DNA from: Caproicibacterium argilliputei
GTDB lineage: Bacteria > Bacillota > Clostridia > Oscillospirales > Acutalibacteraceae
Reading direction: 5' to 3'
DNA length: 64,000 bases
Assembly: GCF_029211325.2 (NCBI RefSeq)
Contig: NZ_CP135996.1
Location: forward strand, 248,001 to 312,000
The notes below the pieces were generated by a model, which was given only the letters and a program-made list of their open reading frames with translations, ran no database searches and had not been told where the DNA came from. A program made the translations under genes and the position numbers. Below, piece after piece: positions 44,389 through 50,023 of this stretch. Position 1 is the stretch's first letter; the number at the start of each line of letters is the position of its first letter.

Positions 44389-44430
44389 AAAAAAGGAAGG
44401 ACGCAGGCATTGCCGCGTCCTTCCTTTTTT
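44389..44430. terminator. Bidirectional terminator between cysS and csoR
   Basis: AAAAAAGGAAGGACGC (44389-44404) pairs perfectly with GCGTCCTTCCTTTTTT (44415-44430); it serves both convergent operons and overlaps the csoR stop region. Confidence 0.95.
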
Positions 44431-44692
44431 ACTTTCCGGTTCGGTCAAACAGGTCGAGCAATTCGTCAATTTTTTTGTCCGGATTGCCGCTTTCCACCGC
44501 TTCGGTGACACAGCAGCGCATATGAGCGTGCAGCACCTCGCGGTTTGCTTTCTGCAGAATCGCCACGGCAGCCTGCAGCTGATTGCTGATGTCGATACAG
44601 TAGCGATCGTCATCCACCATCTTCATAACACCGTTAATCTGACCAACGGCGGTTTTCAGCAGGCGCTGGACGGTTGTTTTATCCGCCTGCAT
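44429..44692 (-). CDS. csoR: Copper-sensing repressor CsoR
   Basis: An 87-residue CsoR/RcnR-family repressor. Cu(I) ligands Cys32, His57 and Cys61 have the canonical C-x24-H-x3-C spacing, which separates CsoR from nickel RcnR and persulfide CstR. The family start KTTVQRLLKTAVGQINGVMKM is intact. It is the last gene of the copA operon (TGATG overlap) and probably represses it by the operator at 47333-47355; Cu(I) releases it. Confidence 0.92.
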   Translation of the reverse strand: MQADKTTVQRLLKTAVGQINGVMKMVDDDRYCIDISNQLQAAVAILQKANREVLHAHMRCCVTEAVESGNPDKKIDELLDLFDRTGK

Positions 44693-44907
44693 CAGGCGTT
44701 CTCCACACGGCCGGGCTGGTAGCCCGCGTCGGTAACAGCCTTTTTCAGAGCTTCGTCAGAAACCTCTGCGCCGCAGGAAATAACGGCGTTTTTCTTTTCC
44801 AGACTGACGCTGACTTCAGTGACGCCGGGAACCTCCTGCAGCGCCTTAGTAACGTGTGCCTGGCAATGTTCGCACATCATGCCTTCTACGGAAATTGTTT
44901 TTTTCAT
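44692..44907 (-). CDS. Possible internal start giving stand-alone CopZ
   Basis: Within the copA frame, AAAGGAG (44917-44923) lies 9 nt before ATG 44905-44907. Initiation here would yield a 71-residue protein [19 protein letters not shown]... with the full CopZ/HMA fold and stop shared with CopA. The linker before it ([11 protein letters not shown]) looks like read-through of a former intergenic ribosome site. Either a recent copA-copZ fusion or a dual-product gene; expression from the inner start is inference. Confidence 0.5.
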
Positions 44908-47259
44908 GGAATCCACTCCTTTAGAATTGATAGACGGGGTTTTTACGGCAACAGCCGCCGCAGGCGCAGGCAGGTCAGAAACCTGTGCCCGCTGTTTGGG
45001 CCGGAAAAAGCGCAGGCGCAGTGCATTGGTTACCACAAAGAAGCTGCTCAGACTCATGGCGGCCGCCGCGAACATCGGGTTCAGCTGCCAACCGAGCAGG
45101 GGGTAAAACACACCCGCTGCCAGCGGGATGCCGCAGGCATTGTAGAAAAACGCCCAGAACAGGTTTTCTTTTACGTTGCGGATGACTGCACGGGAAAGCT
45201 CAATGGCGGAAACCGCGTCCAGCAGGTCGCTTTTCATCAGCACAACATCTGCGCTGGCAATGGCGACGTCGGTTCCCGCACCGATAGCAAGGCCGACATC
45301 CGCGCGGGTAAGCGCAGGTGCGTCGTTGATGCCGTCACCCACCATGGCGACCTTGTGACCGGACTCCTGCAGTGCACGGACTTCGCGTTCCTTATCCTGC
45401 GGCAGCACCTCCGCCACGGCGCGGTCAATGCCGAGCTGGGTGCGGATAGCCTCCGCTGTGCGGCGGTTGTCGCCGGTAAGCATAACCACCGAAAGTCCCA
45501 TGTGCCGCAGTGCTTCTACAGCAGCCTTGCTGGTTGGTTTCACCGGGTCTGCGGCGGCAATTACGCCCATCAGCTGGTTTCCCTTGGCAAAGTACAACGG
45601 CGTTTTTCCTGTTTCCGCCATATGGTGTACCTGTGCCTCCAGTACCGAAACGTCCGCACCGCAGGCTGCCATCCATGCGGCGTTGCCTGCACTGTACATG
45701 GTGCCGTTCAGCTGTGCGTGTACCCCGCGACCGGGTACGGCTTCAAATTTTTCTGCCGCTGCGGGCGCAACACCGTGTTCTTCCGCATACTGTAGAACTG
45801 CCTGCGCCAGCGGATGCTCGCTTGGCTTTTCCAGAGCCGCTGCCGTTTGCAGCAATTCGGCTTCGGTAAATGGCGCCTGTGCGGCAACATCGGTGACCAC
45901 CGGACGGCCCTGTGTCAGGGTGCCGGTCTTGTCCAGCACCACCGTGTCCACGGTGTGTGCGGTTTCCAATGCTTCGGCGGATTTATAAAGGATACCAAGC
46001 TGGGCACCCTTGCCGGTGCCAACCATAATGGCAACCGGTGTGGCAAGGCCGAGTGCGCAAGGGCAGGAAATGACCAGCACTGCAATGCCCGCGCGCAGAG
46101 CGAACTCCGGCGCATAGCCCAGCAGCAGCCAGACCAGTGCGGTCACAGCGGCGATGGTGATAACGACCGGCACGAAAACGCCCGCAATTTTATCTGCCAG
46201 GCGTGCAATCGGCGCTTTGCTGTTTCCGGCGTCTTCCACCAGGCGGATAATCTGTGCCAGCGTGGTTTCATCGCCGACCTTTGTTGCACGGAACACGAGC
46301 CGCCCGTTGCCGTTGATAGTTGCGGTGATGACTTCATCGCCCGTTTCCTTTTCTACGGGAATGCTTTCGCCGGTGATGGCGCTCTGGTCCACAGCGGAAA
46401 GGCCGTCGGTGACCACGCCGTCCACTGGAATGCTTTCGCCGGGGCGCACCACCACCAGGTCATTCAGCTGCACTTCCTCCACGGGAATCTGCTGCTCGCT
46501 GCCGCCGCGCAGCACAACGGCTGTCTGCGGCTTTAAATCCATCAGCTTTTCGACCGCTTCGGTGGTCTGCCCGCGCGAGCGGGTTTCCAGATATTTGCCG
46601 ACAGTAATCAGCGTCAGGATGGTGCCCGCTGATTCAAAGTATAAATCCATATGGTACTGTTGTGCAAGTGCAAAATCTCCGGCGGCAAGGCCGTTGCCGA
46701 TGCGGCAGATTGCAAAGATGCCGTATACGATGGCAGCCGTTGCACCAATGGCGATTAAGCTGTCCATATTTGGCGCCCGGTGAAACAGCGTGCGGTAGCC
46801 GTTAATAAAGTAGCTGCGATTCAGGTAGAGAATCGGCAGCAGTAGAAGCAGTTGTGCCATGCCGAAGGTAATAGCATTCTGCATACCGGTCAAAAACGGC
46901 GGCAGCGGCAGGCCAAGCATACTGCCCATGGAAATGTACAAAAGCGGCACGAAGAAAATAATGGAGAAAACCAGACGGTTTTTCATGGCGTGCAGTTCCT
47001 CTGCCGCTCGCTGGCGCGCGCTTTTTTCCTGTGCCGCCATATTTTTGCCTGCCGGCTGGGCGCCGTAGCCCGCTTTTTTGACCGCCTCGCAGATTTCGGC
47101 ATCACTGAGTGCGCCATCGTCAAACTGTGCGGTCATGGTGCCGGAAAGCAGGTTGACCGCGCAGTCCTGCACACCGGGCAGGTTGCTGACTGCCTTTTGC
47201 ACGTGCGATTGACAGGCGGCGCAGGTCATACCGGTCACCGTGAATTTTTCCTGTTTCAT
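44692..47259 (-). CDS. copA: Copper-exporting P1B ATPase with C-terminal CopZ-like domain
   Basis: An 855-residue P-type ATPase. N-terminal heavy-metal domain GMTCAACQ (Cys13/Cys16), membrane CPC (399-401) in [12 protein letters not shown], phosphorylated Asp443 in [17 protein letters not shown], and the Cu(I)-type helix residues YN and MxxS near the C-terminus of the membrane domain. Residues 785-855 are an additional complete heavy-metal domain (GMMCEHC, Cys796/Cys799). The ATG at 47259 follows AAGGAGG. It exports Cu(I). The tail domain after the last membrane helix is unusual. Confidence 0.95.
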
Positions 47260-47332
47260 AAAGCCCTCCTTTTTGTTATTTCGAATTAGCGGCACACGGC
47301 AGTTTTTGCGCGGCCGCCAAAGGGATAGCGTT

Positions 47333-47355
47333 TATACCCCACCCAGGGGGTGTAT
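47333..47355 (-). promoter_or_regulatory. CsoR operator at the copA promoter
   Basis: TATACCCC-ACCCA-GGGGGTGTA (47333-47354): GC-flanked inverted repeat with TATAC/GTATA-like ends, as in CsoR sites. It sits at the expected transcription start of copA, 5 bp downstream of the -10. Confidence 0.7.
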
Positions 47356-47359
47356 CGTT

Positions 47360-47388
47360 AGTATAGGCTTACTAAAGATAAAAGTCAA
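47360..47388 (-). promoter_or_regulatory. copA promoter
   Basis: Minus strand TTGACT (47383-47388), 17-bp spacer, TATACT (47360-47365). Back-to-back with the arsR promoter, whose -35 begins 12 bp away. Confidence 0.85.
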
Positions 47389-47399
47389 GCACTTTTTTC

Positions 47400-47428
47400 T
47401 TGACAAGCGCATACAGTGTGTATATAAT
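47400..47428 (+). promoter_or_regulatory. Consensus promoter of the arsR/Zn-ATPase operon
   Basis: TTGACA (47400-47405), 17-bp spacer, TATAAT (47423-47428), a perfect sigma-A promoter overlapped at its -10 by the operator. Confidence 0.92.
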
Positions 47429-47458
47429 GAACATATGAACAACAATTCATATGTTCAT
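47427..47458. promoter_or_regulatory. ArsR/SmtB-type operator
   Basis: Perfect 13-bp inverted repeat ATGAACATATGAA (47427-47439) and TTCATATGTTCAT (47446-47458) with a CAACAA spacer. It covers the last bases of the -10 and the transcription start, the typical site for ArsR-family repression, which metal relieves. Confidence 0.85.
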
Positions 47459-47482
47459 ATGTGCAAAGAAGGAGGATACACG

Positions 47483-47851
47483 ATGCCGGATAAAAATGGA
47501 ATGGAATGCTGTGACTTTATTCATGTGCACGAGGATATCATAAAAAAAGTGCAGAGCGTGGTTCCGGATGAAGAGGTGCTGTATGACTTGGCGGAGCTTT
47601 TTAAAGTCTTTGGCGACAGCACTCGTATCAAGATTCTTTATGTGCTGTTTGAAAGCGAAATGTGCGTGTGCGATCTTGCACAACTGCTGCATATGAACCA
47701 ATCCGCCATCTCGCACCAGCTGCGCGTGCTTAAGCAGAACCAGCTGGTCAAGTACCGGCGCGAGGGCAAAACGGTGTTTTACGCATTAGCAGATGACCAT
47801 GTGCGCACCATTCTCGGCACCGGTATGGAGCACCTGACAGAGCTGGGCTGA
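47483..47851 (+). CDS. ArsR/SmtB family metal-responsive repressor (CadC/CzrA-like)
   Basis: A 122-residue winged-helix repressor. LAELFKVFGDSTRIKILYVL then the alpha3 metal motif SEMCVCDLAQLL (CVC) and recognition helix QSAISHQLRVLKQNQLV. With the N-terminal Cys pair (MECCDF) this resembles the CadC alpha3N site for Cd/Pb/Zn; C-terminal DDHVRTILGTGMEH resembles the alpha5 zinc site. The ATG follows AAGGAGG. Controls itself and the ATPase operon through the inverted repeat upstream. Confidence 0.92.
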   Translation: MPDKNGMECCDFIHVHEDIIKKVQSVVPDEEVLYDLAELFKVFGDSTRIKILYVLFESEMCVCDLAQLLHMNQSAISHQLRVLKQNQLVKYRREGKTVFYALADDHVRTILGTGMEHLTELG

Positions 47852-47905: not shown

Positions 47906-48127
47906 ATGAAAAAACAGTATCGCCTTGAAGACTTAGATTGTGCCAACTGCGCCGCAAAAATGCAAGATGCCATTCAAAAAATTGACGGTGTCAACCGTGC
48001 GGATGTGAACTTCCTTTCGCAGAAGTTGACGCTGGAGGCGGACGACGCACGCTTTGACGAAATCGTAAAGCAGACGGTGAAGGTTTGCAAAAAGGTGGAG
48101 CCGGACTGCAGAATCCTGCTGCACTGA
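47906..48127 (+). CDS. Stand-alone heavy-metal-associated (HMA) protein
   Basis: A 73-residue ferredoxin-like HMA domain: LEDLDCANCAAKMQDAIQKI, with Cys-x2-Cys at about 12 and 15, preceded by Asp (DLDCANC, the Zn/Cd-type rather than Cu-type TCxxC). AGGAGG lies before the ATG. It is followed 48 bp later by an ATPase lacking this N-terminal domain, so it is either a detached domain or a metal chaperone for it. Confidence 0.88.
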   Translation: MKKQYRLEDLDCANCAAKMQDAIQKIDGVNRADVNFLSQKLTLEADDARFDEIVKQTVKVCKKVEPDCRILLH

Positions 48128-48175: not shown

Positions 48176-50023
48176 ATGACGGCAAAACAAAAACGGATGC
48201 TCCTGCGCATCCTGATTTCTGCGGCGCTGCTGCTTGCGTGTGCGCTGCTTCCCGTAAGGGGGACGCCGCGCCTACTGCTGTTTCTGGCGCCGTACTTCCT
48301 GGTGGGATACGATGTGCTGTGGAAAGCTGTGCGCAACATTGCCCACGGGCAGGTGTTTGACGAAAACTTTCTGATGTGCGTGGCAACCATCGGGGCGCTG
48401 GCGGTTGGCGAGTATCCGGAAGCGGTGGCGGTTATGCTGTTTTACCAGGTCGGCGAGTTATTCCAGAGCTACGCCGTGGGGCGCAGCCGCAAGAGCATCA
48501 GCGCGCTGATGGATATTCGGCCGGACAGCGCCAATCTGGAGCAGGCAGACGGCACCGTGGCCGTTGTGGACCCGGAGGAAGTGCCGGTGGGCAGCGTGAT
48601 TGTGGTGAAGCCGGGCGAAAAAATTCCGTTGGACGGCACCGTGCTGGAGGGCAGCAGTTTGGTGGATACCTCCGCGCTGACCGGCGAAAGTGTACCGCGC
48701 CAGCTTGCACCGGGCGGCGAGGCAATGAGCGGCTGCATCAACCAGAGCGGGGTGCTGCGCATTACCGTGACGAAAGAATTTGGCGCCTCTACGGTGTCAA
48801 AGATTCTGGATTTGGTCGAAAATGCGAGCAGCAAAAAAGCGCGCGCTGAAAACTTCATTACGAAGTTTGCCCGCTACTACACGCCGATTGTTGTGTTTGC
48901 CGCAGTTGCGCTGGCGGCACTGCCAACGCTGCTGTTTCGCCAGCCGTTTGAAGATTGGCTCATGCGTGCGCTGAACTTCTTAGTGGTGTCCTGTCCCTGT
49001 GCGCTGGTCATTTCCGTTCCGCTCAGCTTTTTTGGCGGCATCGGCGGTGCTTCCCGCAGCGGAATCCTCATCAAGGGCGGCAATTACATGGAAACCCTTG
49101 CGGACGCGGAAGTGGCTGTTTTTGATAAGACCGGCACCTTGACGAAAGGGACGTTTCGTGTGACGCAGACAGTGCCGCAGGAAGGTGTGGCGCCCGAAAC
49201 TCTGCTGGAAATCGCCGCGCTTGCGGAAAGCGGCAGCAATCACCCCATCTCTCAGTCGCTGCGTGCGGCGTGGGGGCAGCAGGTACCGCCGGATCGTGTG
49301 GGGGAGATTCAAGAAATTGCCGGGCGCGGCGTGCAGGCGCAGGTGGACAGCCGCACGGTGCTGGCGGGCAATGCCAAGCTGATGCAGCAGGCATCCGTGA
49401 CGTTTCAGGATGTCTCCCTGCCCGGCACCGTGGTGCACGTTGCCGCGGACGGCAAGTATCTGGGGTACTTGCTGATTTCCGACGAAGTAAAGCCAAACGC
49501 AAAAGAAGCCATTGCCAAGCTGAAAGCGGCGGGTATCAGGCGCACAGTGATGCTCACCGGCGACAACCGCACCGTGGCACAGGCAGTGGCGGAGCAGCTC
49601 GGCGTTGACGAGGTACACGCGGAACTGCTGCCGGGTGACAAAGTCGGAGAAGTGGAAAAGCTGATGGGGCAGAAGTCCGGCAGCCTGGTCTTTATGGGGG
49701 ATGGCATTAACGATGCGCCGGTGCTGGCGCGTGCGGACGTGGGCGTGGCGATGGGTGCGCTCGGCAGCGACGCCGCCATTGAAGCCGCGGACATCGTGTT
49801 GATGGACGATGACCCGGCAAAGCTGGCGGCGGCGGTACGCATTTCGCGCAGGACACTGCGCATTGTGCGGCAGAACATTGTGTTTGCGCTTGCAGTAAAG
49901 CTGTTGGTGCTGGTACTCTCGGCGTTGGGGCTTGCCAATATGTGGGCGGCGGTTTTTGCGGATGTAGGTGTGACGGTCATTGCCATCCTCAATTCCATGC
50001 GTGCCCTGCGTACAGAAGAATAA
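48176..50023 (+). CDS. Zn/Cd/Pb-exporting P1B ATPase without N-terminal metal domain
   Basis: A 615-residue P1B-2-type ATPase. CPC at 273-275 in VVSCPCALVISVPLSFFGG (the VIS..PLSFFGG tail marks Zn/Cd type), Asp317 in [25 protein letters not shown] and the C-terminal helix with DVGVTVIAILNSMR. The short N-terminus starts directly with membrane helices. GGGGAAC precedes the ATG at 48176. Repressor ArsR and the separate HMA protein are in the same operon; Cd or Zn export is expected. Confidence 0.93.
   Translation: MTAKQKRMLLRILISAALLLACALLPVRGTPRLLLFLAPYFLVGYDVLWKAVRNIAHGQVFDENFLMCVATIGALAVGEYPEAVAVMLFYQVGELFQSYAVGRSRKSISALMDIRPDSANLEQADGTVAVVDPEEVPVGSVIVVKPGEKIPLDGTVLEGSSLVDTSALTGESVPRQLAPGGEAMSGCINQSGVLRITVTKEFGASTVSKILDLVENASSKKARAENFITKFARYYTPIVVFAAVALAALPTLLFRQPFEDWLMRALNFLVVSCPCALVISVPLSFFGGIGGASRSGILIKGGNYMETLADAEVAVFDKTGTLTKGTFRVTQTVPQEGVAPETLLEIAALAESGSNHPISQSLRAAWGQQVPPDRVGEIQEIAGRGVQAQVDSRTVLAGNAKLMQQASVTFQDVSLPGTVVHVAADGKYLGYLLISDEVKPNAKEAIAKLKAAGIRRTVMLTGDNRTVAQAVAEQLGVDEVHAELLPGDKVGEVEKLMGQKSGSLVFMGDGINDAPVLARADVGVAMGALGSDAAIEAADIVLMDDDPAKLAAAVRISRRTLRIVRQNIVFALAVKLLVLVLSALGLANMWAAVFADVGVTVIAILNSMRALRTEE

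Follow-up and report, generated by a model that had tools for sequence, protein, structure and literature searches.

A putative in-frame CopZ-like gene inside the 3' part of copA in Caproicibacterium argilliputei and its relatives

The window analysed here is a stretch of 64,000 nucleotides from Caproicibacterium argilliputei (NZ_CP135996.1, positions 248,001 to 312,000), and the features of its copA locus are listed in Table 1. The CopA protein contains an HMA domain at its N-terminus and a second one at its C-terminus, with E1-E2_ATPase and Hydrolase domains also matched (Pfam). Against NCBIfam TIGR01511 it scores 607.7 bits, above the cut-off of 397, and it does not reach the equivalog model of E. 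coli CopA (NF007952; 672.5 bits, cut-off 1316). The translation possesses CPC in the transport helix, the motif of P1B-1 Cu(+) ATPases.

According to a sequence-only reading of this DNA, the final membrane helix of CopA is followed by another complete HMA domain, with which the protein ends. The Pfam match and the position of the two cysteines within GMMCEHC, a GMxCxxC metallochaperone motif, bear this out. In the same reading, AAAGGAG stood 9 nt ahead of an ATG in the copA frame, at 44907. Both the site and the start codon (codon 785, A at 44907) are present; the figure of 9 is the step from the final G to the A, and 8 nt lie between the two (TGGATTCC). The computed mass of the frame read from this ATG agrees with the free product of approximately 7.5 kDa that had been predicted. 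In sequence, the predicted 71-residue product is matched by PDB chains of CopZ as well as by copper-ATPase HMA domains. Taken alone it falls under the NCBIfam cut-offs for CopZ (NF047957, 77.4 bits against 85; TIGR00003, 60.3 against 62) and is for that reason named CopZ-like.

Upstream of copA, the near-palindrome resembles a CsoR operator, for which it is a candidate. In the interval 47360..47428 two divergent promoter-like sites adjoin, one reading leftwards to copA and the other, TTGACA-17-TATAAT (12/12), rightwards to the gene of an ArsR-type regulator (47483..47851). The latter precedes the gene of a 73 amino acid HMA protein (LDCANCAAKMQ; 47906..48127, plus strand), which lies directly before that of a P-type ATPase (48176..50023, plus strand) in which Pfam found no HMA domain and which we read as a Zn/Cd type. 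Short ORFs for similar small DCANCAAK proteins are present in many relatives. Within 44400..47480 no Rfam family was matched at its gathering score. An internal promoter was considered and rejected, the sole minus-strand consensus match inside copA being weak (46666..46638) and none lying near 44907. Downstream, csoR starts within the copA/copZ stop codon (44692..44694, minus strand) and is without an obvious strong Shine-Dalgarno (SD) sequence of its own, and the arrangement suggests that csoR may be translationally coupled to copA/copZ.

Table 1. Features of the copA-copZ locus, in coordinates of the window
Feature	Coordinates	Strand	Basis
csoR-like gene, copper-sensing repressor; its start overlaps the stop of copA/copZ (TGATG)	44429..44692	-	Pfam PF02583, sequence
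Fused copA-copZ gene for a P1B-1 Cu(+)-exporting ATPase, 855 aa plus stop	44692..47259	-	sequence, Pfam, NCBIfam
Putative copZ frame within copA, beginning at codon 785, 71 aa, 7533 Da	44692..44907	-	sequence, PDB and NCBIfam matches
C-terminal HMA domain with Cys796 and Cys799	44716..44898	-	Pfam PF00403, residues 788-848
Linker of 35 codons, last membrane helix to C-terminal HMA domain	44908..45012	-	sequence
Internal Shine-Dalgarno AAAGGAG; read in frame, part of Lys-Gly-Val	44916..44922	-	sequence and conservation
Shine-Dalgarno AAGGAGG of copA itself	47265..47271	-	sequence
Near-palindrome TATACCCCACCCAGGGGGTGTAT	47333..47355	no strand	sequence
Promoter-like TTGACT-17-TATACT upstream of copA	47360..47388	-	consensus match only

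The 3' ends of copA genes were gathered from the genus, the family, the order and the phylum, and from named genomes. Subtraction of 6 duplicates from 256 loci left 250. Fusion is seen in 210 of these and a separate copZ in 13; 22 show no copZ over 300 nt, and the others are either cut (3) or unclassified (2). The loci were taken as best matches of a fused query, except for 100 regions picked by hand, so that the share of fusions is biased, and the SD was not a criterion of selection. Left out were L034, L225 and L228, which lie at contig or alignment ends, and L111 and L139, in which the helix motif was not found; L111 is fused as judged by eye and stands outside the counts. Nested starts were assigned blind to the SD, as an ATG 4–12 codons before GMxC (the one nearest to 8) or else a GTG 6–10 codons before it, and an SD core was counted when its end fell 4–12 nt upstream of the start. 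By these rules a start lies at the junction in 194 of the 210 fused genes (193 ATG, 1 GTG) and 16 have none. A core precedes 176 of the 194, as against 88 of 3394 other in-frame ATGs in the same genes. Among the remaining 18, a four-base core is found in 11 and none in 7, and in six of these seven the ATG is at an unusual position, 4 or 6 codons before the motif.

Addition of a phylum sample (L282–L309, of which L294 and L300 are unclassified) raised the set to 225 unique fused genes, with 209 junction starts and 16 genes lacking one. Rather than all relatives showing the fusion without the site, 189 of the 209 starts carry a strict SD core and 20 lack it. Start and SD together occur in Lachnospiraceae, Oscillospiraceae, Butyricicoccaceae, Anaerotignaceae, Erysipelotrichaceae and Selenomonadaceae, among others, and in single records from Coriobacteriaceae, Atopobiaceae, Spirochaetota, Myxococcota and Bacteroidota, where metagenome-assembled genomes may be mislabelled. 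An Agathobaculum strain, Anaerotignum lactatifermentans and Pygmaiobacter massiliensis each carry a locus of this kind. L248, a Desulfovibrionaceae record, has the fusion and no start. The fused CopA proteins of L024, L063 and L066 end in two HMA domains in tandem, the nested start being absent from L024 and L063, and that of L238 ends in three, according to the HMA matches of its genome.

The sequence-only reading had proposed that the locus makes both a fused pump and a free CopZ, which all of the comparative tests run here support. It had also taken the linker to read through an apparent former intergenic ribosome site. On that account a formerly separate downstream copZ would have been joined to copA by loss of the stop codon, and its ribosome site would merely have yet to decay. 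Layouts with copA, a stop codon and then copZ do exist in the 13 separate loci that the comparison brought to light, and 12 of them have an SD core before copZ. In the separate layout of L136 (genome G031) the copZ ATG overlaps the copA stop codon (TAATG) and a 9-base SD, TAAGGAGGT, lies inside the last copA codons, a layout possibly intermediate between separate and nested. The history of the fusion was examined with FastTree, in a tree built from 195 CopA cores (140 with start and SD, 13 with a start and no SD, 16 without start, 19 separate and 7 with none); L266 and L279 are on long branches, which FastTree readily joins, and their placement is unsure. The fused or separate state requires 8 changes on a tree whose length is 60.8 changes per column. 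Among rows with start and SD, median pairwise identity (1500 random pairs) is 24% in the linkers as against 56% in the last 300 amino acids of CopA. Because changes of state are few on a long tree and the linkers are divergent, a relic should have decayed by now, but the SD and the start have for the most part been retained.

The folding of the mRNA also argues against a relic. In 41-nt windows over 176 loci, the nested start shows the least predicted structure (-1.4 kcal/mol, where G+C drops to 0.33), which amounts to about -7 to -10 kcal/mol at 45 nt or more to either side. In 42-nt windows the start has -1.5 kcal/mol against -2.9 for synonymous recodings and is the weaker in 158 of 189 cases (p 7e-21), so that low structure is retained beyond synonymous expectation. 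The corresponding values are -7.1 against -7.9 kcal/mol (p 0.27) in the 16 fusions without start and -8.4 against -8.0 kcal/mol (p 0.16) at random positions in the genes. The comparison points to selection on the site and not to a relic: the site has little likeness to an old intergenic one that is accidentally read through, and selection seems to have maintained it in long-established fusions; we regard undecayed remains as very unlikely.

The SD-like sequence might instead slow elongating ribosomes, for folding or membrane insertion, with no initiation taking place. Its position after the last membrane helix, where a domain begins, would suit such a role. Pausing would require neither a start codon nor a fixed spacing, and yet spacings of 8–10 nt between core and ATG are the commonest, each value from 13 to 79 nt being represented by 0–4 loci. 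Of the 16 fused genes without a start, 0 have an SD where one would be expected (Fisher 5.8e-15 against the 176 of 194, a simple test that kinship among the sequences inflates); in one of them, L033, AAGGA is present, but further off. On the tree the start codon changes 13 times among fused genes and SD presence 12 times among start-bearing rows. Nine independent pairs of supported branches differ in the start; the SD follows it in 8.9 on average and runs opposite in none (200 random pairings; median p 0.0039, range 0.0039–0.0078). With SD and start being lost together, pausing is to our minds slightly less credible still than a relic.

It may also be asked whether initiation within copA would mainly boost translation of the overlapping csoR rather than produce CopZ, since in the window csoR begins within the copA stop codon. 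A csoR-like gene is directly downstream in 58 of 156 fused relatives tested, whereas the nested start is present in 209 of 225 fused genes, and we give this possibility less credence again.

The codons of the linker were examined for constraints of another kind. When the last ten linker codons ahead of the start are recoded synonymously, at the codon usage of the gene concerned, 64.5 SDs are expected (sd 5.6), and shuffling of linker codons is expected to give 11.5 (sd 3.3), where 176 are seen. Two codon phases predominate in the reading of the SD: 70 loci have it as x-Gly-x (mostly Lys-Gly), 100 mostly as x-Lys-Glu, and 6 in the third phase; therefore nucleotides are conserved, and not one peptide. 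Lys-Gly is coded AAAGGA in 56 of 57 cases in the SD window and in 66 of 444 elsewhere in the same genes, and Lys-Glu is coded AAGGAG in 69 of 96 and 114 of 512, figures that are illustrative, as the loci were preselected for the SD and the counts partly restate it. That a Lys/Glu/Gly-rich linker ending in Met yields the motif by chance, through constraint on protein or composition, accounts for the 64.5 of 194 that residue choice alone provides but not for the 176 observed in two phases or for their excess over shuffled linkers, and is the least probable of the alternatives. The combination of AAAGGAG and in-frame ATG is, as judged from the sequences, beyond chance.

Separate genes for soluble CopZ were sought by Pfam HMA searches of chosen genomes, followed by inspection of the short ORF matches by eye for the motif. 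At a threshold of E 1.1e-9 (matches being complete to about 1.1e-9, 1e-8 or 1e-6, depending on the search), a soluble stand-alone GMxCxxC CopZ gene was found in 0 of 84 genomes with a nested start, hand-chosen from those at hand and mostly at least 95% complete, versus 7 of 16 genomes with a fusion and no start, 3 of which (G538–G540) have no stated completeness (Fisher 7e-7, a value made optimistic by kinship among the 16, G042 and G199 being of one genus). The 84 comprise 80 genomes with a strict SD and 4 without; G173, with a separate layout as judged from its HMA matches, and the unclassified G108 stand outside them. The seven are G042, G140, G150, G170, G199, G333 and G540, and a counted stand-alone CopZ is absent from the other 9 of the 16 too.

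Not counted as soluble CopZ were four longer ORFs with CCG and GMxCxxC from start-bearing genomes (L315, L318, L329 and L332), inclusion of which changes the contrast to 4/84 versus 7/16 at the same threshold. Also uncounted were L310 (LVCPMC, start-bearing) and L324 (GLDCPNC, no start), and a 187 amino acid HMA frame in G542 and frames of at least 443 amino acids were left out of the reading. At weaker E-values CopZ-like genes appear in G011, G296 and possibly G210, which have no start, and in G188 and G051, which have an ATG without SD; the matches for start-bearing genomes are not complete to that depth, and these cases give no contrast. The short HMA genes of start-bearing genomes are mostly of the DCANCAAK type, like the one before the Zn/Cd-type ATPase in the window, and four such genomes specify a longer CCG-containing HMA protein resembling L005 of the window's own genome. 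HMA proteins of about 120–165 amino acids in which a Cys-Cys-Gly stretch precedes the HMA domain are recurrent (L005, L315, L318, L329, L332, L357, L367 and L368), and L005 has a hydrophobic N-terminus as well. The window's genome gave five HMA matches, two in copA, one in a 714 amino acid frame and two in short proteins that are not soluble CopZ; with the 714 amino acid frame left out, no other soluble CopZ was found among the HMA matches read.

Taken together, the tests have their most economical account in internal initiation, by which one cistron very probably gives both a pump with a tethered chaperone and a free CopZ. In this proposal copZ would be an in-frame gene within the 3' part of copA. 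Ribosomes loaded at the start codon of copA itself would traverse the linker and complete the 855-residue pump, with the chaperone domain tethered at its C-terminus; others would bind the internal AAAGGAG, in its unstructured stretch, and start at codon 785, to release a free 71-residue CopZ that would carry Cu(I) to the pump. Both products would come from one transcript, probably under the control of CsoR, and because the transcript is shared, pump and free chaperone would rise together under copper. The site, its conservation at the nucleotide level, the joint loss of SD and start and the lack of another soluble CopZ in the 84 genomes are read from the sequences. From these we infer actual initiation at the site, the making of both products and their ratio, the control by CsoR and the role in copper transfer.

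In-frame internal initiation is known to give short C-terminal isoforms, as in CheA-short, IF2 and ClpB, where, as in the window, a nested start has its own SD. The proposed CopZ differs from these in that it would consist of an entire metallochaperone-like domain, at the service of the long product, and in that the arrangement is kept across many families. Separate copA-copZ pairs, as in the 13 relatives, share the gene order of the window, but only in the pairs does a stop codon stand between the genes. The CopA of Archaeoglobus fulgidus reportedly has (Agarwal 2010) a C-terminal metal-binding domain, like the CopA of the window, and we know of no internal start in it. For E. coli, Meydan and Drees are both said to have described in 2017 a free chaperone, CopA(Z), made from copA by programmed -1 frameshifting. 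Two papers (PMC5009743, PMC10187127) likewise have the 5' segment of E. coli copA yielding a free, putative copper chaperone through this mechanism. In E. coli, as proposed for the window, one copA gene thus gives a pump and a free metal-binding domain; there, however, the 5' segment and frameshifting are involved, and here the C-terminal domain and a separate internal start. Frameshifting of the E. coli type was rejected for the window, no in-frame X XXY YYZ heptamer being present in the first 120 codons of its copA.

In a 2016 metagenomic study of gut Firmicutes, copA was reported to be under CsoR control and chaperones of the CopZ type to be absent (PMC4938975). The absence of CopZ from the CsoR regulon could be explained by a copZ nested in copA. 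Among the matches listed from the open-licence literature, no published account of a nested copZ start in copA was found. To our knowledge, ordinary gene finders do not report nested in-frame genes.

We think it likely that in Clostridia and some other lineages copZ has long been carried in frame within copA, the nested start supplying the only soluble chaperone of the cell and the fused copy acting as a permanently tethered donor or sensor; the missing CopZ of gut Firmicutes would then be a blind spot of annotation, and the production of pump and chaperone from one gene would have been solved twice. If the nested start works, many of these bacteria may have a CopZ after all, hidden in copA. 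It would constitute a widely conserved nested in-frame gene, and internal initiation would be a second, independent route to pump and chaperone from one gene, next to the frameshifting of E. coli.
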